Source: a virus. From it: 22,670 bases of DNA. The translations under genes were made by a program, and so were the position numbers. This document shows, in pieces, positions 5,944-22,670 of the stretch. Each line of letters begins with the position of its first letter. Positions within the stretch are counted from its first letter, which is position 1. The notes beneath the pieces were generated by a model. That model was not told the origin of the DNA and ran no database searches. It saw nothing but the letters and a program-made list of their open reading frames with translations. The stretch is from positions 1 through 22,670 of the IMG/VR virus record IMGVR_UViG_3300036832_000674, one strand, 5' to 3'.

Positions 5944-6170
5944 TGCTTCCAATCATTGTAACAGTTGTTCTTGTACAATTGACAGGCCCTGATAATCAAA
6001 TTATTTGGGTCAATCCAGAAGAAATTGTCAGCATTCGTGCGCCTAGAGAATCACAGCAACATCATTTCGATAATGATATCAAATGTACTCTTCAGACAGT
6101 AGACGGTAAACTTATCAATGTTATCGACTCATGCGATGAAGTAAGAAATAAAGTGGGAATAAGACCATGA
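5943..6170 (+). CDS. Small FlbD-like beta-rich protein
   Basis: 75 residues; the ATG overlaps the preceding stop (TAATG) and the gene ends in an ATGA overlap with the exported protein gene. The pattern is a leading strand (VLVQLTG), a second strand with I.WVNPEEI.SI, a variable turn, then L.T.DGKLINVIDS..EV. This is the layout of the short FlbD-like domain (T..NG..i.vN...I..I......t...L.dGk.i.V.es..eV). FlbD-like domains are known from flagellar operons; small phage proteins of similar pattern have no established function that I know of. The similarity is weak and based on pattern only. Confidence 0.5.
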   Translation: MLPIIVTVVLVQLTGPDNQIIWVNPEEIVSIRAPRESQQHHFDNDIKCTLQTVDGKLINVIDSCDEVRNKVGIRP

Positions 6171-7696
6171 TCAAAACATCCTTGTTAACTTTGGCTTTTT
6201 TGATTTCCTTCAATGCTGCTACTGTCGCTCAATGTGACTGTCAGCCAGCTCAAGATTGGCAAAATAGTTTCACTTCTGGCGATCCTGTTGACGCAACAGA
6301 AGTCAGACAATTTGCTGTTTTTGATAGCAAACTTTATGCTGCTACTGGCAGCTGGATGGACCAAAACCAACCAAAAGGTACAGCGCACGTTATTCGTCTT
6401 GATTCTCCTACAAGCAAATGGATAAACGAAGTTGATTTCGGCGACGGTACAACTGGCGGATTAGCTAGACTTCATTGGGCAGCAAGTAAAAATTATAGTC
6501 CAGTCAATATTGATACGCTAGTTGCCAGTATTTGGTCTGGCGCTACTGTATTCAGTAAGAACCTTGAAAATGGAAAATGGATACGAACCAATCTAGATCC
6601 AAATGGACAAATTAGAGCATTTGCTACTCATGATGATCAAGTTGCGCATGAATTTTGGGGATTTGCAGGCGGTAAACCTGGAATATATCGCGGGCAGCTT
6701 CTTGATGATCGTCCAGCAGGAGTAAGTCCTATTGAATGGACTGTAAATGGCGCATCAAAACTTGAATTGAATACAGTAAATATGAATCTGCCATTGTGTT
6801 CAGGAGGTGGACGTATTACTGGTTTTGCCGAGGCGCGTGGCAGAATATTCGCTAGCGCATGTTGGCGCATCTTTGAGAGAGTAGATGGAACTGTTGGGAA
6901 CTGCAACCTTACACAAGTTCAAATAGGTGGAGTTTGTCAACCTCGTTGGAAACGATTTTGGGATGATCCTTTAGCAGCGCAAGGTGAGAGTGGATTGCGC
7001 GGGCTGACTCAGGTCATGTATAATGGCCAACAAGTGCTTTTGGTTGGCAGTGAAAGTGGAAATATGCATATTACGAGACTTGATCCAGATACTGGACAGT
7101 CTGTAGTTGAGATTAATATAAGTACATATCTCAACAATCTTTGGGGTCTAAATTCTGGTTATGGCATTATTCCGTATGACGCGCCAGCTAATCTTTGGTA
7201 CGGCCCTGATGGATATGGGCGGCGCTTGTTTGGATTTGAAGTTTGGCTACCTGGCGCTCCAACTAAGGATATGGCTCGTAAATTAGTCAATATAGATGAT
7301 GGTTCTCCTCAAGTTATGAACGGAGAAGGGTTTTTCTTCATTCGTAACAGTGCTTCCAGTTATCAACTTATTCATATTCCAGCATCTGCTGCTACACAAT
7401 TGATGACAGCCATTCGTGACATTATAGCTAGTCCATTCAAAGAAGATTGTAATGAAAAAGGACAAGATTGCGCTGTTTTTGCTGGCACATTTGATGCTAA
7501 CAAATCAGCAACTCAAACTCCCTGCACAGTGGCACCATGTACATTTCCACCATTGGTCGCTGTTCCTACACATGGATCTGGAGCCATTGTTAAAGGACGC
7601 ATAACATTGGATGCAGCAGCTTTGGCGGCGCCACAAAATGAAGGGAGTGTGGAAGCAGCACCACAAATTCCTCATATTGGATCTGGAGAAGAATAA
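6167..7696 (+). CDS. Exported, cysteine-rich beta-propeller-like protein
   Basis: 509 residues. The N-terminus is a clear Sec signal peptide: two positive charges region MIKT, hydrophobic core LLTLAFLISF, and likely cleavage after Ala21 (TVA then QC). The mature part starts with CDC and contains about ten Cys, suggesting disulfides in the periplasm or outside the cell. Most of the chain (residues ~40-470) is homologous to the leaderless protein at 9688-10776. Shared landmarks are ATE.R.FA, IRL.SP..W, a GQIRxFAxH block, an I.WTV block, SGLRGLT and II.SPF. Repeated L-Y/F-A-x-x-G and FAG..GIY.G strands suggest a beta-propeller. The C-terminal ~60 residues are Pro/Ala/Thr-rich. The gene overlaps its neighbours by ATGA and TAATG and lies just before the endolysin. 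Function is unknown; it could act at the cell envelope during late infection or bind the host surface after lysis. Confidence 0.7.
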   Translation: MIKTSLLTLAFLISFNAATVAQCDCQPAQDWQNSFTSGDPVDATEVRQFAVFDSKLYAATGSWMDQNQPKGTAHVIRLDSPTSKWINEVDFGDGTTGGLARLHWAASKNYSPVNIDTLVASIWSGATVFSKNLENGKWIRTNLDPNGQIRAFATHDDQVAHEFWGFAGGKPGIYRGQLLDDRPAGVSPIEWTVNGASKLELNTVNMNLPLCSGGGRITGFAEARGRIFASACWRIFERVDGTVGNCNLTQVQIGGVCQPRWKRFWDDPLAAQGESGLRGLTQVMYNGQQVLLVGSESGNMHITRLDPDTGQSVVEINISTYLNNLWGLNSGYGIIPYDAPANLWYGPDGYGRRLFGFEVWLPGAPTKDMARKLVNIDDGSPQVMNGEGFFFIRNSASSYQLIHIPASAATQLMTAIRDIIASPFKEDCNEKGQDCAVFAGTFDANKSATQTPCTVAPCTFPPLVAVPTHGSGAIVKGRITLDAAALAAPQNEGSVEAAPQIPHIGSGEE

Positions 7697-8181
7697 TGCC
7701 AAAACCTTCTGAAATGACATTAAGCAGTCCAGGTTTCGATTGTCTTCATATGCGCGAAGGTTTACGTCTTGAAGCTTATCTTGACTCAACTGGTGTGCTC
7801 ACTATTGGTCTTGGTCATACTAGCGCGGCTGGTCCACCAGAAGTTGTTCAAGGAATGGTAATTACTGAAAATCAAGCAGAATTTATCTTTCGTAGTGATT
7901 CAGAAACATTTCGTGATGAAGTTATAAAATATGTTAAAGTCAATCTTGAACAACATGAATTTGATGCTTGCTGCTCATTTCTTTACAATGTTGGTTCAAC
8001 TAATTTTCTTGGTTCGACATTTTTGGAGCGTCTCAATAGTGGTGATAAACCTGGCGCAGCAGAAGCTATGCTTTGGTGGAATCAGCCTCCAGAAATTATT
8101 ACTCGACGACAGGGTGAATATCAGCAATTTAAAAATGGTTTATATATTCCGCGCGCTGATGCGCAAGGAAATCCAGTATGA
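7696..8181 (+). CDS. Endolysin, GH24 (T4-type) lysozyme
   Basis: 161 residues. It should hydrolyse the MurNAc-GlcNAc bond of peptidoglycan at the end of infection. The catalytic triad pattern of T4 lysozyme is intact: Glu21 (MREGLRL), Asp30 (YLDSTG) and Thr36 (LTIGLGHT). The spacing is 9 and 6 residues, the same as Glu11/Asp20/Thr26 of T4 lysozyme. Downstream are the family's FLYNVG helix (residues ~94-99), the substrate-cleft region and the R-R-Q-G-E motif near the C-terminus. There is no signal peptide or SAR-type N-terminal anchor, so it should need a holin for release. The gene starts in a TAATG overlap with the exported protein and ends in an ATGA overlap with the repeat protein. Confidence 0.92.
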   Translation: MPKPSEMTLSSPGFDCLHMREGLRLEAYLDSTGVLTIGLGHTSAAGPPEVVQGMVITENQAEFIFRSDSETFRDEVIKYVKVNLEQHEFDACCSFLYNVGSTNFLGSTFLERLNSGDKPGAAEAMLWWNQPPEIITRRQGEYQQFKNGLYIPRADAQGNPV

Positions 8182-8492
8182 GTTCTAATAAGAATCCAAA
8201 TAGTGCGGTTCCTGTTTGGTATGCTCCTGCTGCTGGAGTTGGTGATCGTGCCAATATGAAAAAAGCAGTTCCTGTTTGGTTAGCAGCTTCTGCACCACCA
8301 GGTCTTAATCCTAAAAAAGCTATTCCAGTTTATGTTACTACAAATCCACCTGTTACTGGAGATAGAGCTAATCTTCAGAAAGCTACACCGATTTGGGTGA
8401 TATCTGGAACTCCGCCAATAGGCGTAGTTGGAGATAGGGCAAATCCAGCATTAGCAGTACCAGTTTATATTGTAGCGCAGCCAACAGAATAG
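8178..8492 (+). CDS. Small protein of AVPVW/Y repeats
   Basis: 104 residues, start overlapping the lysozyme stop (ATGA). The chain consists almost wholly of five degenerate units. Each carries N-x-x-x-A-V/I/T-P-V/I-W/Y, followed by a variable Ala/Thr/Pro stretch and usually GDRA. The units start near residues 6, 25, 43, 65 and 88. There is no signal peptide or membrane span. The composition (short beta strands separated by Pro/Gly turns) suggests an extended or solenoid-like structural piece. I know similar A-V-P-V strings from phage minor structural proteins, but no function is established. Its position between endolysin and holin candidate could mean a lysis role or a late virion role. Confidence 0.65.
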   Translation: MSSNKNPNSAVPVWYAPAAGVGDRANMKKAVPVWLAASAPPGLNPKKAIPVYVTTNPPVTGDRANLQKATPIWVISGTPPIGVVGDRANPALAVPVYIVAQPTE

Positions 8493-9687: not shown

Positions 9688-10776
9688 TTATCCTCCTTGG
9701 ACGGCATCTTGTAGCGTTGATCTTACGATCCAAGCTGTATCATGTTCCCTATCTTTGTAACAATCAAAACCTCCATAGTAAACATCAGTATTATTAAATG
9801 GAGATAATATAATCGTTCTGCATGATCTCATTGGCTTTGGTGCAAGCGTTGGAATAGCAATTCTTCTCCAGTTTCCTTGATATAAACAAACATAGTGCGC
9901 TGGCGCATCAGCTCCGGCATCTATTCCACATAATATTACTTGTGATCCATTCAAACTAGCGACGCACATGTTATTATATGCGCCAATTATATAGAAATTT
10001 TGTGGACCAGATAAATCAAATTCTGTAAATGCTTCATATGTACCTGGAGCGAATTTGATTATTCGTGATTGTGTTCCTTCAACACATGCCCAAAGGTTGC
10101 CATTAATTGATGTTAATCCTCGCAATCCAGATTGTGATATTCCAGGTATCGGATTTTTCCAAACTTCTGTCCAACTAGATGGATGTCCATCATTGCGACG
10201 ATAGAGTCTTTGGCCTACAGTTGCATGAAGAACACCATTAACTTCTGCAAATGACATTACTCTTTCTGGATGTCCTCCAGCCATTAGTGGTAGACCTTTA
10301 ATATTAAGTTCTGGAACAACAGTCCATTGAATTTCTCCTGGAAGAACAGCATCATACACGCCGGAAAAAATTCCTTCATTTTGACCTGCAAATGCCATAT
10401 TAACACCAGTTCTATTATCAATATGCGCAGCAAAACTGCGGATTTGTCCACCTTCTCCGACTCGTGTTAAATTCCATCCATTATTTTTGATACCAACATA
10501 TGCTCTACCAAAAAATCCGCATACGAGTGTATTGATATTAGCTGTTGGAAAATGAATTTCATGTAAACATGCAACTGCTATTGTATCAGGATCAAATGTT
10601 TGTTCTATTTCCCAATTACCTCCTGGAGAATTAAGTCTAATAATTTGTGGTCCTTGACCTGAAATATTGTTATGCCAATTACCAGTTCCACAAAAGAGCG
10701 CTCCATTTGACGCAAACATACGTGCTTCTGTGGCAGAAAATGGTAGATGCGGTATCCATGAGAGCGTAAATGCCAT
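9688..10776 (-). CDS. Leaderless beta-propeller-like protein, paralogue of the exported protein at 6167-7696
   Basis: 362 residues, no signal peptide; the N-terminus goes straight into MAFTLSWIPHLPF. The upstream site is GGGGAC, a weak but usable ribosome site. Collinear similarity with residues ~40-450 of the exported protein is clear: ATEARMFA, IIRLNSPGGNW, INTLV, GGQIRSFAAH, FAG..EGIFSGVY, IQWTV, SFAEVNG, SGLRGLT, TIILSPF and GGFDCYK. Repeating strands of the form G-x-L-x-A-x-V point to a beta-propeller. Compared with the exported copy it lacks the leader, most of the cysteines and the C-terminal Pro-rich tail. Its place beside a sheath-like protein suggests a virion-associated or host-interaction role; no catalytic motif is seen. 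Confidence 0.7.
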   Translation of the reverse strand: MAFTLSWIPHLPFSATEARMFASNGALFCGTGNWHNNISGQGPQIIRLNSPGGNWEIEQTFDPDTIAVACLHEIHFPTANINTLVCGFFGRAYVGIKNNGWNLTRVGEGGQIRSFAAHIDNRTGVNMAFAGQNEGIFSGVYDAVLPGEIQWTVVPELNIKGLPLMAGGHPERVMSFAEVNGVLHATVGQRLYRRNDGHPSSWTEVWKNPIPGISQSGLRGLTSINGNLWACVEGTQSRIIKFAPGTYEAFTEFDLSGPQNFYIIGAYNNMCVASLNGSQVILCGIDAGADAPAHYVCLYQGNWRRIAIPTLAPKPMRSCRTIILSPFNNTDVYYGGFDCYKDREHDTAWIVRSTLQDAVQGG

Positions 10777-12696: not shown

Positions 12697-12729
12697 TTCT
12701 CATCTTTCACAGGCGGTCTGTAAGCGCCC

Positions 12730-12767
12730 GTAACGCTTCCCTTATATGCTATATCGGGAAGCGTTAC
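12730..12767. repeat. Perfect 12-bp inverted repeat, candidate operator
   Basis: GTAACGCTTCCC at 12730-12741 and its exact reverse complement at 12756-12767 are separated by 14 bases. The 14-base spacer itself contains ATAT-GCT-ATAT, so a longer cruciform is possible. The arms are much richer in GC than the surroundings and sit inside the largest non-coding gap of the window (12697-12890). On the minus strand one arm overlaps the end of a promoter -35 and the other the end of its -10 and the start site, as expected for a repressor operator. Confidence 0.7.
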
Positions 12768-12769
12768 AA
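12741..12769 (-). promoter_or_regulatory. Sigma70-type promoter for the leftward accessory operon
   Basis: Reading the minus strand: TTGTAA (12764-12769) as -35, a 17-base spacer, and TATAAG (12741-12746) as -10, four and five of six matches to consensus. Transcription would start near 12734, about 38 bases before the ATG at 12696. Both boxes are overlapped by the inverted repeat, suggesting repression or activation by a symmetric DNA-binding protein. The match is by eye. Confidence 0.5.
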
Positions 12770-12770
12770 G

Positions 12771-12793
12771 CGAAATTTTCAGCGCTAATTTCG
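12771..12793. repeat. Second inverted repeat in the intergenic region
   Basis: CGAAATT at 12771-12777 and AATTTCG at 12787-12793 form a 7-bp inverted repeat. Its nine-base loop contains the palindrome AGCGCT. It begins four bases after the operator-like repeat. It could be another protein site or an RNA hairpin in any read-through leader. Confidence 0.4.
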
Positions 12794-12842
12794 TAATAAA
12801 AACAATAGCTTAGAAGCACATGAGTTTTCGTAAAATAGGGTT

Positions 12843-12859
12843 ATCGGCCGGATCGGCCG
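12843..12859 (-). terminator. GC-rich direct/inverted repeat, possible weak terminator
   Basis: ATCGGCCG occurs twice, at 12843-12850 and 12852-12859. CGGCC and GGCCG around GGATC also form a 5-bp hairpin. It lies about 30 bases after the stop of the gene ending at 12891 (leftward), followed on the minus strand by an AACCCTATTTTA stretch. It could end the upstream unit before the promoter at 12741-12769; the short stem makes this uncertain, and a protein-binding site is an alternative. Confidence 0.35.
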
Positions 12860-12890
12860 CGGATTATTACAGTTAGTGGATGTGGCATTT

Positions 12891-13163
12891 TCAATCCTTT
12901 CTATCATAATGAATACCAATTGTGAATAATTCTCTAACTGTCAATCTTCTAACCTTATCAAATAAAGTTGGGCTAAGATTTGAAAGTGATTCAATTACTC
13001 CTGTTAATGATGCGCTGATAACAATAGCAAGATCGTCTTCAGCATATGCAGTACCTAAATCACTTCCATCAATAATACATGTCTTTATGATTTGTTTCAT
13101 ATTATCCATTATTTTAGCAGAACGTTGTTCCAATTCTTCCTTATTCAATCTAACATTTGCCAT
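12891..13163 (-). CDS. Small hypothetical helical protein
   Basis: 90 residues from the ATG at 13161-13163. GAGGA ends six bases upstream of it, whereas it abuts the alternative ATG at 13169, so the shorter start is chosen. The chain is predicted helical, with a charged N-terminal third (RLNKEELEQRSAKIMDNMK) and a hydrophobic middle (LAIVISASLTGVIESL). No family is recognised. It follows the DfrB-like gene with two bases between, and is the last gene of this unit before the intergenic palindromes. Its helical build resembles that of the neighbour at 13507-13803, but I see no convincing alignment. Confidence 0.55.
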   Translation of the reverse strand: MANVRLNKEELEQRSAKIMDNMKQIIKTCIIDGSDLGTAYAEDDLAIVISASLTGVIESLSNLSPTLFDKVRRLTVRELFTIGIHYDRKD

Positions 13164-13165
13164 TT

Positions 13166-13510
13166 TCATTCCTCATATTTTGGTGCAAGTTTGCGATCAA
13201 GTGCATGTTCTGGATAAAGTTGTACTGATCCTGTCTCATAAATACTTTCAACAACATAGCCTCTTGGCGTATATGAAGTTGAATAATATCCACGTACATA
13301 GCCGCGCCACATAGAGCCTCTAGATTTTTCCACATAAGTTCCAAGTGGCCAAATATTTTGCCAAGATGATTCTGGAAAATGATCTGCCAATAATTCTCCG
13401 AGCGCTTCTATAATAATCCATGGATCAGATGCAGGAGCGAATTCCTGTGGTGATCCGTGTTTTGTTTTTTCACGTAGCAGCGCCTCTTTGACTTTGGCTA
13501 TGTCAATCAT
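13166..13510 (-). CDS. Type-B (R67/DfrB-like) dihydrofolate reductase-like SH3 domain protein
   Basis: 114 residues; AAGGAGG six bases before ATG, start overlapping the previous stop (ATGA). Residues 57-106 align without gaps, at a constant offset of 30, to the SH3-like core of R67 dihydrofolate reductase as I remember it. Matching positions include Val60, Lys62, Gly65, Trp68, Gly70, Gly74, Tyr76, Thr78, Thr81-Pro82, Gly84-Tyr85, Val87-Glu88-Ser89, Gly94-Ser95-Val96-Gln97 and Tyr99-Pro100. The R67 active-site residues Lys32, Gln67 and Tyr69 correspond to Lys62, Gln97 and Tyr99; Ile68 is Leu98. R67 acts as a homotetramer with a single central pore, reducing dihydrofolate with NADPH, and is insensitive to trimethoprim. 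Here a ~55-residue helical N-terminal domain (WIIIEALGELLADHF) precedes the core. It may be an enzyme or only a domain relative; fold homology is much surer than activity. Confidence 0.75.
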   Translation of the reverse strand: MIDIAKVKEALLREKTKHGSPQEFAPASDPWIIIEALGELLADHFPESSWQNIWPLGTYVEKSRGSMWRGYVRGYYSTSYTPRGYVVESIYETGSVQLYPEHALDRKLAPKYEE

Positions 13511-13803
13511 TGTTTTCCTCCTTCAACGCGCATCCAATTGAAACCTAATCTTCTAAACTCACTAATTGTAAAGTCTTCCAAATCTTTTCTATCTTTTGAG
13601 TTCGTTACATTACTAGTAATTTGATCTATTACAGCGATTAGTGAATGTATCGAATGATGGACTTCCATTCTTCCATCAGTACTATTGGCAAATTGTGCCA
13701 TTGCAGCCAAAATCATACAATGTAAGCATTCTGGATCGAAGTGTATTACCATGTCGGATACAAATTCAATATCAAGTTCTTCTCTCTTAGTTCGTTCGCT
13801 CAT
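13507..13803 (-). CDS. Small hypothetical protein upstream of the DfrB-like gene
   Basis: 98 residues from the ATG at 13801-13803, which has GGAGG about eight bases upstream; the in-frame ATG at 13836 has no such site. Predicted largely helical, with a conserved-looking FVSDMVIHFDPECLHCMIL stretch that contains a CxxC-like Cys-Leu-His-Cys, then a Ser/His segment and a C-terminal FRRLGFNW. No family is recognised. It overlaps the preceding gene by 17 bases and the DfrB-like gene by four, so the three are coupled. Confidence 0.55.
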   Translation of the reverse strand: MSERTKREELDIEFVSDMVIHFDPECLHCMILAAMAQFANSTDGRMEVHHSIHSLIAVIDQITSNVTNSKDRKDLEDFTISEFRRLGFNWMRVEGGKQ

Positions 13804-14008
13804 CTTTTTTGCCTCCATTTTCGATTTCATTTGCAAGGCTCCTAAGCAATTCAGGTACTCTTGGTAAAAGTTCTGGCAATTTTAAACGAATTGCCCAGCC
13901 TGTTCCTCTATCACCTCCAATGACTATAGCCAATGCAGCTAATGCGCTAGTTCTCTCCAAAAGAATTTTTGCTTCGTCACCGTATTTACCTTGATTTGTC
14001 ATGTTCAT
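13787..14008 (-). CDS. Small hypothetical protein
   Basis: 73 residues starting at the ATG at 14006-14008. GGAGG lies five bases upstream, and this start leaves 19 bases after the previous gene. The longer frame from 14131 would overlap that gene by 100 bases and has no ribosome site. The sequence has a helical N-terminus with an Ala/Leu-rich stretch (ALAALAIVIGG), a GGDRGTGWAIRLKL strand region and a charged C-terminal helix. No family is recognised. Its middle could be a small substrate- or protein-binding fold, but I would not assign a function. Confidence 0.5.
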   Translation of the reverse strand: MNMTNQGKYGDEAKILLERTSALAALAIVIGGDRGTGWAIRLKLPELLPRVPELLRSLANEIENGGKKDERTN

Positions 14009-14027
14009 TGTAGCCTCCATTGTGTAG

Positions 14028-14321
14028 TTATTTTCGTCCATTTTTGTGATTTCTTCTTTTCCTGGTTTCCTTCCAGAATTGTATGGGTTGATTACCTCTT
14101 GCTTTACTTCTAAATATCTCCCAATCTTCATTATTTTCGTCTGATTTTGAAATCAAATTATTGGCAGTATCTAATATTGATTGCCTAGCTGTTCTTGGTA
14201 TCCAATTACGGAAATAGCATCTATTGACAAGCTCAAGAGTATTTATTCTTTGTCCATTTTCAGGAATATTTTCTAGAATTTTTAATTCTAGTGGAGAATA
14301 TGGTATCTTTTGCCGCATCAT
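14028..14321 (-). CDS. Small winged-helix-like DNA-binding candidate
   Basis: 97 residues; AGGAG four bases before the first ATG and seven before a second ATG at 14318, so either may be used. Residues ~8-55 run as helix, turn, helix (SPLELKILENIPENG, then INTLELVNRCYF), then a helix TARQSILDTANNLI. An FRSKARGN..IQFW strand pair like the wing of a winged helix follows. The C-terminus is strongly basic (KRRNHKNGRK). This suggests DNA binding. It directly follows the terminator at 14338-14376 and has no visible promoter of its own, so it is probably made by read-through of the strong upstream unit. Confidence 0.5.
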   Translation of the reverse strand: MMRQKIPYSPLELKILENIPENGQRINTLELVNRCYFRNWIPRTARQSILDTANNLISKSDENNEDWEIFRSKARGNQPIQFWKETRKRRNHKNGRK

Positions 14322-14337
14322 CTATCTCCTTTTGACA

Positions 14338-14376
14338 AAAATTAACCCGTAGCTTTCAAAGCTACGGGTTAATTTT
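14338..14376. terminator. Strong intrinsic terminator
   Basis: A near-perfect palindrome centred on C14357: AAAATTAACCCGTAGC on one side and GCTACGGGTTAATTTT on the other. On the minus strand the GC-rich core is followed by TTAATTTTTG, a classic T-rich tail, 18 bases after the stop of the gene ending at 14395. The A-run on the other side would let it work in both directions. Confidence 0.85.
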
Positions 14377-14394
14377 CAGTTAGCGGCAGATTGA

Positions 14395-17397: not shown

Positions 17398-20328
17398 TTA
17401 CTCTCCCTCTATATCTCCAGCTATGTAGTGGAGTTTAGTTACGACGATTGGTTCAACAGGAGCGAATAGATCAATTTTGATCTTTTTCGCTTCTAAATCT
17501 GATATTTTGCCCAAATATCTGATATGAGTAATTTTTATCATTCTAAATGTATCTGGTATTGTTCCTTTGATTGCATAGAGCGCATCACCTTGTCCACCAA
17601 TTTCTTCGATTTTTTTTCCAACTGTCAGATAGTCATGTCGATCTATTTGACAAAGTATCTCGTCTGTATCATCATTAACAAAGAGGCGCAACACCCAAGA
17701 CTGTCCTTCAATTCTACGGCCGGCTCGTTTCGCTAATGACTGTAAGTCATTTAGATCTCTGGGCTGTATACGTTTAATTAAACAAAATATCATAAAATTA
17801 CCTGGCATTCCTGCTGATAATGTATAAATTGGAACTGGCTTACTAAAAATATTAATCTTAGTCAAATCTGGATGTAGTTTATTGATCGCATCACGAATTG
17901 GAGTTAAACTATCAATTTTTGTTTGAGCTAAAGCTAACTTATTCCTGATGGAAGGAGTTAGTGGCGCGCCACTAATGCGCGCATCCATTATCTTTTTGAC
18001 AGTAACAGGCCCGATCCCTTTGATATTGTTCAATGGGCCTACTAAAATTTTCTTTTCCTTCTCAATTTTAATCGACCATCTATCTGTTGAAGCATCTGCG
18101 TCTATTGGTTTATATTCTACACCTTCAACTGCTAACTCTCTAAGCTGATACAATTGGCGCAGCGGATCACTTTCTGAATCCAACGTTGCTGCTGCGAACT
18201 CAACTGGATAATATGCCTTTAGCCAACAGCAATAATAAGTAATGACTCCATATGAGGCTGCATGAGCTTTATTAAAAGCCCAAGCACCGAATTGAATCAT
18301 TTGCCCCCATAATCTATCTGTTATTTCTTCACCTAATGTATCTTTGGCTATAGCCTTAAATGGCTCGCCAATTTTGTTCATTTCTACAGAGCCCATAGAT
18401 TTGGACATAGCTTTACGAATGTGATGAACGTCACGTACACCCATTTTGCCTATGTCGCGCGCAATCATCATAATTTGTTCTTGATATATCATTTCTCCGT
18501 ATGTTTCCGATAGATATGGCTCTAACAAAGGATGTAGATATGAAACTCTTTCTGTTCCAGATCGTTTACGACACCATCTAACTGCGCCACCAGATGCAAC
18601 TGGACCTGGACGACTGAGTGAAGTAATTGCAATTAGATCGTCCAATCTATCAGTTTTAATCATATTAAACAATATCTGTAGACTTTTGCCCATAGCTTGA
18701 AATATACCTGAATACTGTCGCTTATTAAGAACTTCAAATGCATCTAAATCATCTAATGGGAGTTCTTCTAAAAAACCATTTCTAGGAGGAACTCCTATCA
18801 ACTCTAAGCAACGCTCAAAAATAGATAATTGTGCCAATCCAAGGCAATCTATTTTGAGAAGATTTAATTTCTCACAATCGTCTTTATCTGCCATAATTGT
18901 TCCAGTGCGATTATCAATCGCTACATAATCCACTATCTCATCATTCGTAATAATGGCTCCGGCAGCATGTGATCCTGCATTAGAAGCGTGATCTTCAGCT
19001 TCATACACAGTAGATATTTCTGGATATTCTGAAACAAGTTTTTTTCCCAAGTCTGTCGCTGAAAATGTTTCCTCAAATGTCTGTTGCGCTCTTGAATCTT
19101 TCGATGATCTTTCAATCAAAGTATCAGCGACAGCATCGCACATCCATTTCGGTATTCCCAAAGACATGCCTGCTTTATTCATAATAGACTTAGCTTTGAA
19201 CCTTAAAACTGTTCCAAGGTGCGCAACATGAGTTGATCCATATTTCTCTCCCAAGTAATCAAACACTAAGTGGCGCTTCTGATCTGAGAAATCAAGATCA
19301 ATGTCAGGTAAGTCTTTGCGTGTAACATCGATAAATCTTTCAAATAAAAGTCCGTATTTAATTGGATCTATAGTTGTAATGCCAGTTAGGTAACACATTA
19401 ATGATCCGGCAGATGATCCCCTGCCTGGACCAACAATCATTTTGCTTTTAGCATACTTTACGAGATCAGAAACAATATAGAAATAATCTGAGTAACCTTT
19501 CTCTTCAATCATTTTTAATTCTCTTTCAAATCGTTCTGCATAAATTGGATCGTTCATATTCACATTCAATTCTTCTGCGCCTTGCAGTGCAATGTCACGT
19601 AAAGAATATGAATCCTTCGGTTTGAATACTTCAGCTTTTAGTAACTTTGCATTGCATTGTTCAAATACTTTGTTACGATTATCAATTGCATCTTGCGCCT
19701 CTTCATCTGTTACTATATATGGAAGATTTTTGCGCCATTCTTCATCACCTAATAGCCATTGTGGATACGGATTTTCTTCTGCATTTTTGATTAATGTATG
19801 ATATGTTAATCTATCAAATTGATAAGTGAAGCGATTATCAATATGAGCAATAAACTGATAATTTCTTGATTTTGCTTCACGGAATAACCCAATGGAAGTA
19901 GCAGGATTAAGCGCAATATAAAAGTTAGCATGTGGACATATTCTTCCAAGTTGTACTTTACTATCAGTAATTGATATTACTTCATTTGAATTATGATTTA
20001 TTGTCTCTTCATATGTTAATAATGGATAATGTCCTGCTTTTCCAGTAGCAAGACCGATAAGCTCATTAATGGTGCGCAACTTATTGATTGCAAAAAAAGT
20101 GAAATATGACGTTGCTGGGCGCTTTTGCCCTAGTTGCGCGCTCACACCAAGTGTGACACCAAATATGGGCTTGACATTAGCCTTTTCACATAGTGAATCC
20201 CACTTGACAAATCCAAAAGTAGACATAATGTCATCTAAAGGAAATGAAGTAAAGCCTAGCTCCAAGGCACGCTTGTGTACGTCTTCAAGTTTGCCATATA
20301 CATGATTAAAGCTATATTCTGACTTCAT
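17398..20328 (-). CDS. dnaE: C-family DNA polymerase (DNA polymerase III alpha-like)
   Basis: 976 residues, shorter than bacterial DnaE (~1160). Replicative polymerase for the phage genome. The catalytic aspartates are intact: PDIDLDF with Asp342 and Asp344, and Asp494 in LLKIDCLGL, matching Asp401, Asp403 and Asp555 of the E. coli enzyme. Also present are GPGRGSSAGS (300-309) and the fingers motif AFNKAHAASYG. A helix-hairpin-helix (NNIKGIGPVTVKKI) comes after the fingers, and an OB-like region follows near the C-terminus. The N-terminal PHP domain begins abruptly at SEYSFNHVYG and lacks the canonical H-x-H metal ligands, so it is probably inactive for proofreading. The gene overlaps the separate DnaQ-like exonuclease by four bases (ATGA), which would supply proofreading. 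The C-terminal clamp/tau-binding tail seems reduced. Confidence 0.93.
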   Translation of the reverse strand: MKSEYSFNHVYGKLEDVHKRALELGFTSFPLDDIMSTFGFVKWDSLCEKANVKPIFGVTLGVSAQLGQKRPATSYFTFFAINKLRTINELIGLATGKAGHYPLLTYEETINHNSNEVISITDSKVQLGRICPHANFYIALNPATSIGLFREAKSRNYQFIAHIDNRFTYQFDRLTYHTLIKNAEENPYPQWLLGDEEWRKNLPYIVTDEEAQDAIDNRNKVFEQCNAKLLKAEVFKPKDSYSLRDIALQGAEELNVNMNDPIYAERFERELKMIEEKGYSDYFYIVSDLVKYAKSKMIVGPGRGSSAGSLMCYLTGITTIDPIKYGLLFERFIDVTRKDLPDIDLDFSDQKRHLVFDYLGEKYGSTHVAHLGTVLRFKAKSIMNKAGMSLGIPKWMCDAVADTLIERSSKDSRAQQTFEETFSATDLGKKLVSEYPEISTVYEAEDHASNAGSHAAGAIITNDEIVDYVAIDNRTGTIMADKDDCEKLNLLKIDCLGLAQLSIFERCLELIGVPPRNGFLEELPLDDLDAFEVLNKRQYSGIFQAMGKSLQILFNMIKTDRLDDLIAITSLSRPGPVASGGAVRWCRKRSGTERVSYLHPLLEPYLSETYGEMIYQEQIMMIARDIGKMGVRDVHHIRKAMSKSMGSVEMNKIGEPFKAIAKDTLGEEITDRLWGQMIQFGAWAFNKAHAASYGVITYYCCWLKAYYPVEFAAATLDSESDPLRQLYQLRELAVEGVEYKPIDADASTDRWSIKIEKEKKILVGPLNNIKGIGPVTVKKIMDARISGAPLTPSIRNKLALAQTKIDSLTPIRDAINKLHPDLTKINIFSKPVPIYTLSAGMPGNFMIFCLIKRIQPRDLNDLQSLAKRAGRRIEGQSWVLRLFVNDDTDEILCQIDRHDYLTVGKKIEEIGGQGDALYAIKGTIPDTFRMIKITHIRYLGKISDLEAKKIKIDLFAPVEPIVVTKLHYIAGDIEGE

Positions 20329-20858
20329 AGTATCCCACGCTTGTGCATTTCAATAGCACACTTAGCTGTTATTCTAGCATCCTCAAGTGCTTTGTGCGCC
20401 TCAGGGAAAGTTGTACCAAATAATTCAATATGAAGATTTGTTAGAGTTAAACGATAACCTCTCAAATAAATAGCATGTTGAACAAGATCAATACTCATGG
20501 GCCATTTGATTACTTTATCGTAACGTTGGCATTCAAGATTTACCATATTTATGTCAAATTGAATATTCTGTCCTATTAATATTGGAGCGTCTTCAATACG
20601 TTCTTTTATATCATCTAAATAATCTTCAATAGATGGCGCATTTGCCAATATAGAATTGGTAAAGCCTGTGATTTTTGTGATTTCAGCACTTACGGGTTTT
20701 TTAGGTTGAAATACTCTATAGTATTCATTAAATATATCTCCATCTGAAAGAGTCACATTGAGGCTAGCAAATGAGATTATCTCAGGCTGAATCGCTAGCC
20801 TCCTTGCTGGATTATCTATTAGACCAGTTGTTTCTGTGTCGATGACAAGAGCCAGCAT
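20325..20858 (-). CDS. DnaQ-like 3'-5' exonuclease (DEDDh)
   Basis: 177 residues. All five DEDDh residues are present: Asp7 and Glu9 in VIDTETTG, Asp102 in IQFDINMV, His155 and Asp160 in AHKALEDA. The family removes mispaired 3' ends; the coupling to the polymerase gene (ATGA overlap) argues that it is the proofreading subunit of the phage polymerase, equivalent to epsilon. It is single-domain, without the C-terminal extension that bacterial epsilon uses to bind alpha, so how the two associate is unclear. GTGAGAA precedes the ATG as a weak ribosome site. Confidence 0.9.
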   Translation of the reverse strand: MLALVIDTETTGLIDNPARRLAIQPEIISFASLNVTLSDGDIFNEYYRVFQPKKPVSAEITKITGFTNSILANAPSIEDYLDDIKERIEDAPILIGQNIQFDINMVNLECQRYDKVIKWPMSIDLVQHAIYLRGYRLTLTNLHIELFGTTFPEAHKALEDARITAKCAIEMHKRGIL

Positions 20859-20864
20859 TGTTTC

Positions 20865-21245
20865 TCACTTCTTTAAAAAGGCGCCATATATTGGTACTTG
20901 ATTTTTATCGTGTAACGATTCCTTTTTCTCACGAAAAGCTTCTATTTCTGTTTGTGGTTTTGGTGTCTCTATTTTTACCACACTATTGAGAACTCTTCTT
21001 TGCCATTCTAATTTATCTATTCCTTCTTTCTTAGCTCTTTTCAAAGCATGATCAGGTGGTTTTGCTCTACCAATATCATTATACATTTCTTTAATTATTT
21101 GAAGATCACTTGACATGTTTAATAGATGTGAATATAAACATTGCCTGTATTCTCTATCATCTTTATCATCTAGTCTAATTAGACCAGTTGCCGGATCTAT
21201 ATATGAATCATATGTATCACGAGTAATATCTGGTATAGTTTTCAT
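20865..21245 (-). CDS. Hypothetical protein in the nucleotide/replication operon
   Basis: 126 residues, starting inside the stop of the MazG-like gene (ATGA). It begins with a polar, Asp-rich segment (ITRDTYDSYIDPATGLIRL), followed by helices with many charged residues (YRQCLYSHLLNMSSDLQII, ALKRAKKEGIDKLEW). It ends in a basic tail with VPIYGAFLKK. No enzyme motif is evident and I know no family. By position it is made with the nucleotide-pool and polymerase genes, so a role in replication is plausible but unproven. Confidence 0.55.
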   Translation of the reverse strand: MKTIPDITRDTYDSYIDPATGLIRLDDKDDREYRQCLYSHLLNMSSDLQIIKEMYNDIGRAKPPDHALKRAKKEGIDKLEWQRRVLNSVVKIETPKPQTEIEAFREKKESLHDKNQVPIYGAFLKK

Positions 21246-21580
21246 CTGTTGTCTCCATCACCTGAGAGTGTCTTTCTTTTCATACGATCAGCAAGTTTAC
21301 CCAGATTTCTCATTGCTACATAATCAAGATTCACGCCCAATTCGTCCGCGCAACTAGTGAGATGCCACAAGATGTCTCCCAATTCTTTTAGGAGCGCCTC
21401 TTTTAATTCATCATTTATAATACCATTTTTATCGCTAATACACTTACCTAATTTGTCATTAAATTCTCCTATCTCTCCAGACATTTTGAGAGCATTATAA
21501 ATTAATCCAATTTTCATTTGAGTTTGACTTGGATAGAAGGCAAAGGCGCGCGCCTGTTGTTGATAGTCACGAAGGTCCAT
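21242..21580 (-). CDS. MazG-like nucleoside triphosphate pyrophosphohydrolase
   Basis: 112 residues from the ATG at 21578-21580, with AAGGAAGG six bases upstream; a GTG three bases earlier is an alternative. The all-alpha NTP pyrophosphohydrolase motif is present as E36-x-x-E39 (SGEIGEF) and E66-x-x-D69 (KELGDIL), the four metal ligands of the family. LWHLTSCADELG follows and the C-terminus is RKTLSGDGDNR, which resembles the usual ending of MazG-type proteins. It would hydrolyse (d)NTPs to monophosphates plus pyrophosphate. In phages this is thought to reshape nucleotide pools or lower ppGpp alarmone signalling. It sits among ThyX, HAD and polymerase genes. Confidence 0.85.
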   Translation of the reverse strand: MDLRDYQQQARAFAFYPSQTQMKIGLIYNALKMSGEIGEFNDKLGKCISDKNGIINDELKEALLKELGDILWHLTSCADELGVNLDYVAMRNLGKLADRMKRKTLSGDGDNR

Positions 21581-21885
21581 CACACACCTTCCTTGTCGAA
21601 AGCTGCCAACAAGAAAGCGTAGTTTGCGAGATCCAATAAATTATCTTCTTTTCCATTTCGTCGATAACGACAAATGATTTCGACTATATGAAAAATATAC
21701 TTGTAGCGTACCATATCATCATGAAAAATTGGCGAGCCATCTGGATAAAGAATTAGCATTATTTCAACAGAAGCATGTTTTTCAAGTACATTGTTGTCAT
21801 ACGACTTGCCTCTTTCTATTAGAATATCTATGGCTTTGTTTGCCATATCTATGGCAGCACGTGTTCTTGGAGTTCTTTCATTCAT
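21580..21885 (-). CDS. Small DUF6378-like protein
   Basis: 101 residues; ATG overlaps the stop of the HAD gene (ATGA). Pattern: an N-terminal helix (AIDMANKAIDILIERGKSYD), then a middle segment with DMVRYKYIFHIVEIICRY and a closing NLLDLANYAFLLAAF helix. This matches the layout of the small phage proteins labelled DUF6378 (R...YG...K..R......D...DlanYA). The function of that family is not established; its place next to MazG-like and ThyX genes suggests a nucleotide-related role. Family assignment is by memory of the pattern and moderate in strength. Confidence 0.6.
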   Translation of the reverse strand: MNERTPRTRAAIDMANKAIDILIERGKSYDNNVLEKHASVEIMLILYPDGSPIFHDDMVRYKYIFHIVEIICRYRRNGKEDNLLDLANYAFLLAAFDKEGV

Positions 21886-22311: not shown

Positions 22312-22670
22312 CTATATCTCACTTACTATTATATCCAACTTCTTTATCATAGCAGATTTTTCTTCTGAAGTTAAATTTTGATTGTCATAAATCAAATTTT
22401 GTAAATCACGTCTTGCTTGTGCTTCATCATTTTTATAAAAGATGTAAAACCAAGGATAAACGCGCTCAACTTCCATTATCATAGCCTGCATAACATCACG
22501 ATATTCTTTTTGCACCCTTAATGAGACACGTTTCCTAGTAAGATTAATGAAATTGCGCATATTGATAGTCATGCAGATATTGGTATGAATATTAGTTGGC
22601 AAAATACCACGTGCATCTTCTATAGCTGCGCCACTTTCCAATAGTTCCTTGTAACCTTCATCAATTTTAT
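22312..22670 (-). CDS. thyX: Flavin-dependent thymidylate synthase, C-terminal part (5' end outside window)
   Basis: The frame is open to the window edge at 22670 and ends at TAG 22312-22314; the Met at 22641 is a TTG inside the frame, not the start. About 119 residues are visible. They match the C-terminal half of ThyX: an LLESG...EDARGILP segment, then NICMTINMRNFINL with the N-x-R-x-x-x-x substrate/FAD-binding helix, and R.SLRVQKEYRDVMQAM. The sequence ends with a lysine-rich helix. ThyX makes dTMP from dUMP using methylene-tetrahydrofolate, FAD and NADPH. The N-terminal RHR signature would lie beyond the edge. Confidence 0.88.
   Translation of the reverse strand, partial: KIDEGYKELLESGAAIEDARGILPTNIHTNICMTINMRNFINLTRKRVSLRVQKEYRDVMQAMIMEVERVYPWFYIFYKNDEAQARRDLQNLIYDNQNLTSEEKSAMIKKLDIIVSEI

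Follow-up and report, generated by a model that had tools for sequence, protein, structure and literature searches.

A phage genome stretch of 22,670 bases, the whole of one IMG/VR record and called here the window, carries a gene for a 114-residue protein that near certainly belongs to the DfrB-like domain family. DfrB enzymes are insensitive to trimethoprim and, to our knowledge, have no relationship to any other dihydrofolate reductase. Since phage relatives are known and two have been tested, the gene is no new discovery: DfrB domains in phages are already on record, and the window protein is a divergent addition to a known group. Our preferred reading, to which we give a probability of about one half, is that it would form an R67-type tetrameric pore with slow, trimethoprim-insensitive reduction of dihydrofolate, as an optional accessory of the phage.

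The gene and its phage

Is the open reading frame a real gene? Its ATG lies 6 nt behind AAGGAGG, and at either end the sequence ATGA overlaps a neighbour, upstream with that gene's stop and downstream with that gene's start (table 1). With this ribosome-binding site and the two overlaps, the frame is therefore very probably a real, intact and coupled gene, as the preliminary description had held. The start of the upstream partner likely lies near position 13803. The downstream gene has no significant match in Pfam or PHROG, and neither it nor the first two genes of the cluster found a relative among phages, so that these three neighbours give no clue to function. Inverted repeats (GGGAAGCGTTAC; AACCCGTAGCTTTCAAAGCTACGGGTT) at 12725–12870 and 14345–14385, either side of the five-gene cluster, could be terminators; they are absent from the output of a simple scan.

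Table 1. Positions of the DfrB-like gene, its parts and other features in the window.
Feature	Position	Strand	Basis
First gene, five-gene cluster	14028..14321	(-)	ORF call
Upstream gene of five-gene cluster	13787..14131	(-)	ORF call
Upstream coupled gene of DfrB-like gene	13507..13836	(-)	ORF call
Ribosome-binding site AAGGAGG of DfrB-like gene	13517..13523	(-)	read directly
114-residue DfrB-like domain protein gene	13166..13510	(-)	ORF call
N-terminal extension, residues 1-52	13355..13510	(-)	AF2 model; about 50 residues
SH3-like DfrB domain, residues 53-107	13190..13354	(-)	PF06442 match, AF2 model, Foldseek/VIA, residue table
Downstream coupled gene, ATGA overlap with DfrB-like gene	12891..13169	(-)	ORF call
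MazG-like nucleotide pyrophosphohydrolase	21242..21583	(-)	PF03819 4.8e-6; phrog_229 4.5e-27
C-terminal part of ThyX (flavin-dependent thymidylate synthase) gene, runs off window	22312..22670	(-)	PF02511

The left arm of the window, on the plus strand, holds tail and lysis genes. The right arm, on the minus strand, is given to replication, with an SNF2-type helicase, a DnaE-like polymerase, a DnaQ-like exonuclease, MazG, a PNKP-type phosphatase and a ThyX cut by the window edge. The DnaE-like polymerase III alpha subunit (17398–20328) and the separate gene for the DnaQ-like 3'-5' exonuclease (20325–20858), both on the minus strand, overlap by 4 bases; the nearest phage relatives are about 35% identical. 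The genes at 6167–7696 (+) and 9688–10776 (-) flank the lysis genes on opposite strands and encode related proteins (32% identity over 282 residues, E 7e-28), neither with a Pfam match. A small open reading frame at 8178–8492 (+) is made up of roughly four imperfect copies of a repeat like GDRANLQKATPIWV.

Has this phage a close relative? The viral contigs that match its DNA polymerase do so only distantly, at about 30% identity, so that no sister phage is known. A scan of viral contigs with the window protein as single query gave no relative, and the central 8 kb of the window, searched as DNA against phages, gave no match. One contig (L049) shares the helicase, MazG and DfrB genes; we rejected it as a close relative because the similarity is distant and its G+C content is 55% against 37%.

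Sequence and predicted fold

How close does the protein come to R67? A profile search against the DfrB family, the check that the preliminary description had proposed, matched residues 53–106 to Pfam PF06442 (DHFR_2) with 50.5 bits (E 1.8e-13), twice the curated cut-off of 25 bits, and phmmer matched the R67 PDB chains at E about 4e-11. The alignment to the R67 core is gapless and has 25 identities in 55 positions; 20,000 shuffles gave 15 at most. The R67 residues K32, W38, Y46, T48, T51, S59, S65, V66, Q67 and Y69 are all kept. In the numbering of the window protein, K62, W68, Y76, T78 and T81 correspond to K32, W38, Y46, T48 and T51, and S95-V96-Q97-L98-Y99 to S65-V66-Q67-I68-Y69. The counterparts of K32, Q67 and Y69 that had been claimed from a gapless alignment are confirmed as K62, Q97 and Y99.

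The window protein differs from R67 in having Leu for I68, Arg for V43, Tyr for L50, Tyr for W45 and Glu for H62, none of which the preliminary description lists. The first of these changes, which gives VQLY in place of VQIY, is shared with four other viral sequences, and Glu is the commonest residue at position 62 among the 75 non-redundant viral domains. In DfrB1, W45 can be replaced without loss (PMC9835603). Among the 117 non-redundant domains compared, no other has R43 or Y50, and V56 is likewise unique to the window protein.

An AF2 monomer model built from 85 aligned rows has a pLDDT of 91–96 over residues 51–104; alignment-free folding gave a poor model (pLDDT 52). The modelled domain superposes on R67 crystal structures with an rmsd of 0.9–1.0 Å over 56–59 residues (Foldseek/VIA; Z about 11.5, 42% identity), while the next unrelated SH3-like folds reach Z 7.9 or less. 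The predicted fold is that of an R67-type SH3-like barrel. The N-terminal addition, put at ~55 residues in the preliminary description, is real and about 50 residues long, with helices predicted at modest confidence at 4–17 and 30–44. No relatives of this extension were detected among the sequences compared.

What is already known of such proteins? DfrB-like phage genes were reported from freshwater viromes in 2020 (PMC7265639) and from eight lytic phages in 2025 (PMC12466917), and two phage DfrB proteins were tested in 2023 (PMC9835603). DfrB-H4, from a Vibrio phage, made E. coli resistant to 600 µg/ml trimethoprim, whether whole or cut down to its SH3 segment; DfrB-H3, a Pseudomonas phage protein in which the motif is kept, was not among the proteins giving resistance; DfrB-H5 is tetrameric and active. 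Of the 30 non-redundant sequences that the same work covered, 12 were distant homologues, and point changes in the active site of DfrB1 proved mostly harmful (PMC9835603).

The nearest GenBank phage relative (tblastn) is AUR82941.1 of Vibrio phage 1.030.O, 47.5% identical over residues 35–114. It is almost certainly DfrB-H4 (PMC9835603), because it comes from a Vibrio phage with a DNA methylase 1.9 kb from the DfrB gene, as described for that protein. Both are phage proteins in which a DfrB domain follows an N-terminal extension, but the two extensions have no detectable relationship, and AUR82941.1 has 218 residues, is extended at the C-terminus too, retains VQIY, V43 and L50, and has been tested for trimethoprim resistance. 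The best structural match among the viral models is a protein of this same length.

With R67/DfrB1 (PDB 1VIE, 2RK1) the window protein shares the SH3-like core, the pore residues K32, Y46, T48, T51, S65, V66, Q67 and Y69 and the interface residue W38. R67/DfrB1, however, has 78 residues and a disordered N-terminus and is borne on plasmids or integrons, whereas the window protein has a predicted helical extension and lies on a phage contig. The chromosomal dfrB of Burkholderiales (PMC11662351; for example loci L103–L127) have the domain in common with it but are 78-residue forms near R67. DfrB-H5 of Methylobacterium pseudosasicola (L128) resembles it in carrying the domain within a longer protein and in having Glu at position 62, but is far longer. 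The numbered resistance genes dfrB1–21 encode close R67 relatives of about 78 residues on integrons, plasmids or Burkholderiales chromosomes; with 114 residues, 45% core identity, a phage contig and a long branch, the window protein stands outside them.

DfrB domains among viruses

How constant is the domain in viruses? It was found by tblastn in 25 GenBank phage records and by a pattern-plus-tblastn scan in 233 IMG/VR contigs, from which the best 80 stretches were read; a second viral scan added 17 loci, some contigs being common to both scans. A further 51 loci in bacterial genomes comprise 78-residue dfrB genes and longer proteins, and some of the latter probably sit in prophages. In the 75 non-redundant viral domains K32, G35, W38, G40, G44, Y46, G54, G64, V66, Q67, Y69 and P70 are invariant, and residues 31, 33, 37, 39, 41, 49, 53 and 60–61 vary freely. 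K32 and W38 lay outside the retrieval patterns. Of the viral sequences fetched, 57 distinct ones carry YSTx[LY]T[PA]xGY, the other retrieval motif, through which they could be fetched without the pore motif, and every one of them keeps VQ[IL]Y. Conservation is perhaps somewhat overstated, since the fetched viral set is the best-scoring third.

Fewer than 20 residues precede the domain in 31 of 76 distinct viral proteins and more than 100 in 21, and lengths vary widely. About 40% of the viral and prophage-like DfrB proteins are near stand-alone, and many others have partners of unassigned family; partners of the pyrophosphatase/MazG type occur in two or three and Lar-like restriction-alleviation zinc ribbons in three. 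The fusions to MazG/pyrophosphatase-like domains (L028:4180-4788, L039:5452-6060, L094:4770-5558) come from viral contigs and one Novosphingobium locus; the Lar-like ribbon stands ahead of the DfrB domain (L101:7761-8204, L025:2644-3309, L026:2045-2725). The Rhizobium Schitoviridae phages (L010, L011, L013) form a distinct branch with GPVQIYP replacing GSVQIYP and S59L; in these phages DfrB has the RusA-like gene on one side and the virion RNA polymerase on the other. The frame that encodes DfrB in RHph_N38 (L013) is other than the annotated gene.

Does the window gene work together with thyX? The C-terminal part of thyX at the right edge (22312–22641, minus strand; PF02511 E 1.1e-15, profile positions 129–191) lies about 9 kb away. 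The leftward arm that the preliminary description saw the two genes share stands, in that they are on the same strand. The partnership it implied is not supported. ThyX passed the cut-off in 5 of 45 random viral contigs but was present in 0 of 50 other DfrB-bearing viral records, some of which may be fragments, and so is if anything rarer with DfrB (p 0.02). We rejected a folate partnership with thyX as a general rule on this comparison. ThyA (7/50 against 3/45, p 0.32) and MazG (2/50 against 2/45) did not differ significantly, and FolA, compared in the DfrB set only, was found in none of the 50. The controls were 45 viral contigs of at least 30 kb, picked with arbitrary 14-base patterns. The folate product of ThyX is tetrahydrofolate, not dihydrofolate, so the enzyme creates no need for a dihydrofolate reductase; the presence of both genes in the window is best read as coincidence. 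In Sinorhizobium phage phiM9 (L005, KP881232.1, 149,218 bases) the DfrB gene lies at 417–620 and a ThyA-like match at 147896–148246. These positions at the record ends would bring the two close together in a circularly permuted genome, possibly as a pair like td-frd of T4.

Where do the resistance genes stand? In an unrooted tree of 98 rows and 54 columns, with modest or weak supports, R67 and the chromosomal dfrB fall into one shallow cluster. It lies far from the window protein, and viral sequences are its neighbours (L059, then L178, L087, L083 and L009). A viral reservoir for DfrB is plausible from these sequences. The 'natural reservoir' proposed earlier fits phages as a whole, with 233 viral contigs and the R67 cluster among viral rows, but not the window gene in particular, which sits at the tip of the tree's longest terminal branch (1.91) and lacks a supported neighbour. 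Direct ancestry of the resistance genes from it is unsupported in the 98-row tree, where the window protein appears among the most divergent members and as no special ancestor.

Possible function and rival readings

How might the protein act? DfrB homology, the predicted monomer fold, the kept R67 pore-lining residues and the intact coupled gene are directly supported. A short helical extension and one R67-type SH3-like domain would make up its architecture, and four copies would join through the domain, with its W38 counterpart, into a ring. In the pore, K32 and the VQxY motif would make the contacts to NADPH and dihydrofolate. Closeness of the two would then suffice for hydride transfer, as it does in R67, and reduction would be weak, slow and trimethoprim-insensitive. 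For the phage this may be an optional aid to folate or nucleotide supply during infection; the company of thyX would be a chance combination, ThyX regenerating tetrahydrofolate itself. We put the odds that the window copy is enzymatically active at about even. The trimethoprim resistance given by DfrB-H4 and the tetrameric, active DfrB-H5 speak for this reading, as does the invariance of K32, W38, V66, Q67, Y69 and P70. Against it, R43 and Y50 could disturb packing or the pore, most point changes in the DfrB1 active site do harm, DfrB-H3 was not among the resistant proteins in spite of its motif, and DfrB-bearing phages show no enrichment of thymidylate synthase or MazG.

Might catalysis be a by-product? 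The phage domain may instead be a tetramerising module for ligand binding or scaffolding, with a pore occupied by something nucleotide-like, either NAD(P)H or a nucleotide signal, or with no task but to bring partner domains together. We hold this to be a real, if tentative, possibility, consistent with the unrelated partner domains in viral and prophage-like proteins, with the missing tie to thymidylate synthesis and with the adventitious activity proposed for DfrB ancestors (PMC9835603). However, the exact set of NADPH and folate contacts is invariant, which is what one would expect were the same ligands important, and the present data do not indicate another ligand. We think it unlikely that the window copy has decayed or been re-purposed and has lost the ability to form the pore: its long end branch and the unique R43, Y50 and V56 point that way, but every listed pore or interface residue is kept apart from I68L and W45Y, the former recurs in other viral sequences, and the gene is intact and coupled, with a good ribosome-binding site. 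Chance likeness of a short SH3-like fold (NusG KOW, Tudor, PetP-like) is refuted by the profile and identity tests and has a negligible probability, for such folds score up to Z 7.9 with the model but R67 stands apart from them.

The preferred reading remains that of a pore with slow reductase activity, and the divergent window copy is a test of how far the DfrB family can drift while staying active. The 233 viral contigs present a near-fixed pore amid changing surfaces and partners, and offer many natural variants for assay. A broader and rather doubtful proposal is that the DfrB domain is of old standing and widespread in phages, that its invariant tetrameric pore would take a nucleotide-type ligand and serve the phage in a way that has nothing to do with thymidylate synthesis, and that R67 is a recent single-domain offshoot. 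If so, the pore might, for example, sequester or sense NAD(P)-like molecules. The near-fixed viral pore, together with the absence of a link to thymidylate synthase in phages, narrows the question of where DfrB came from and what its native job is.
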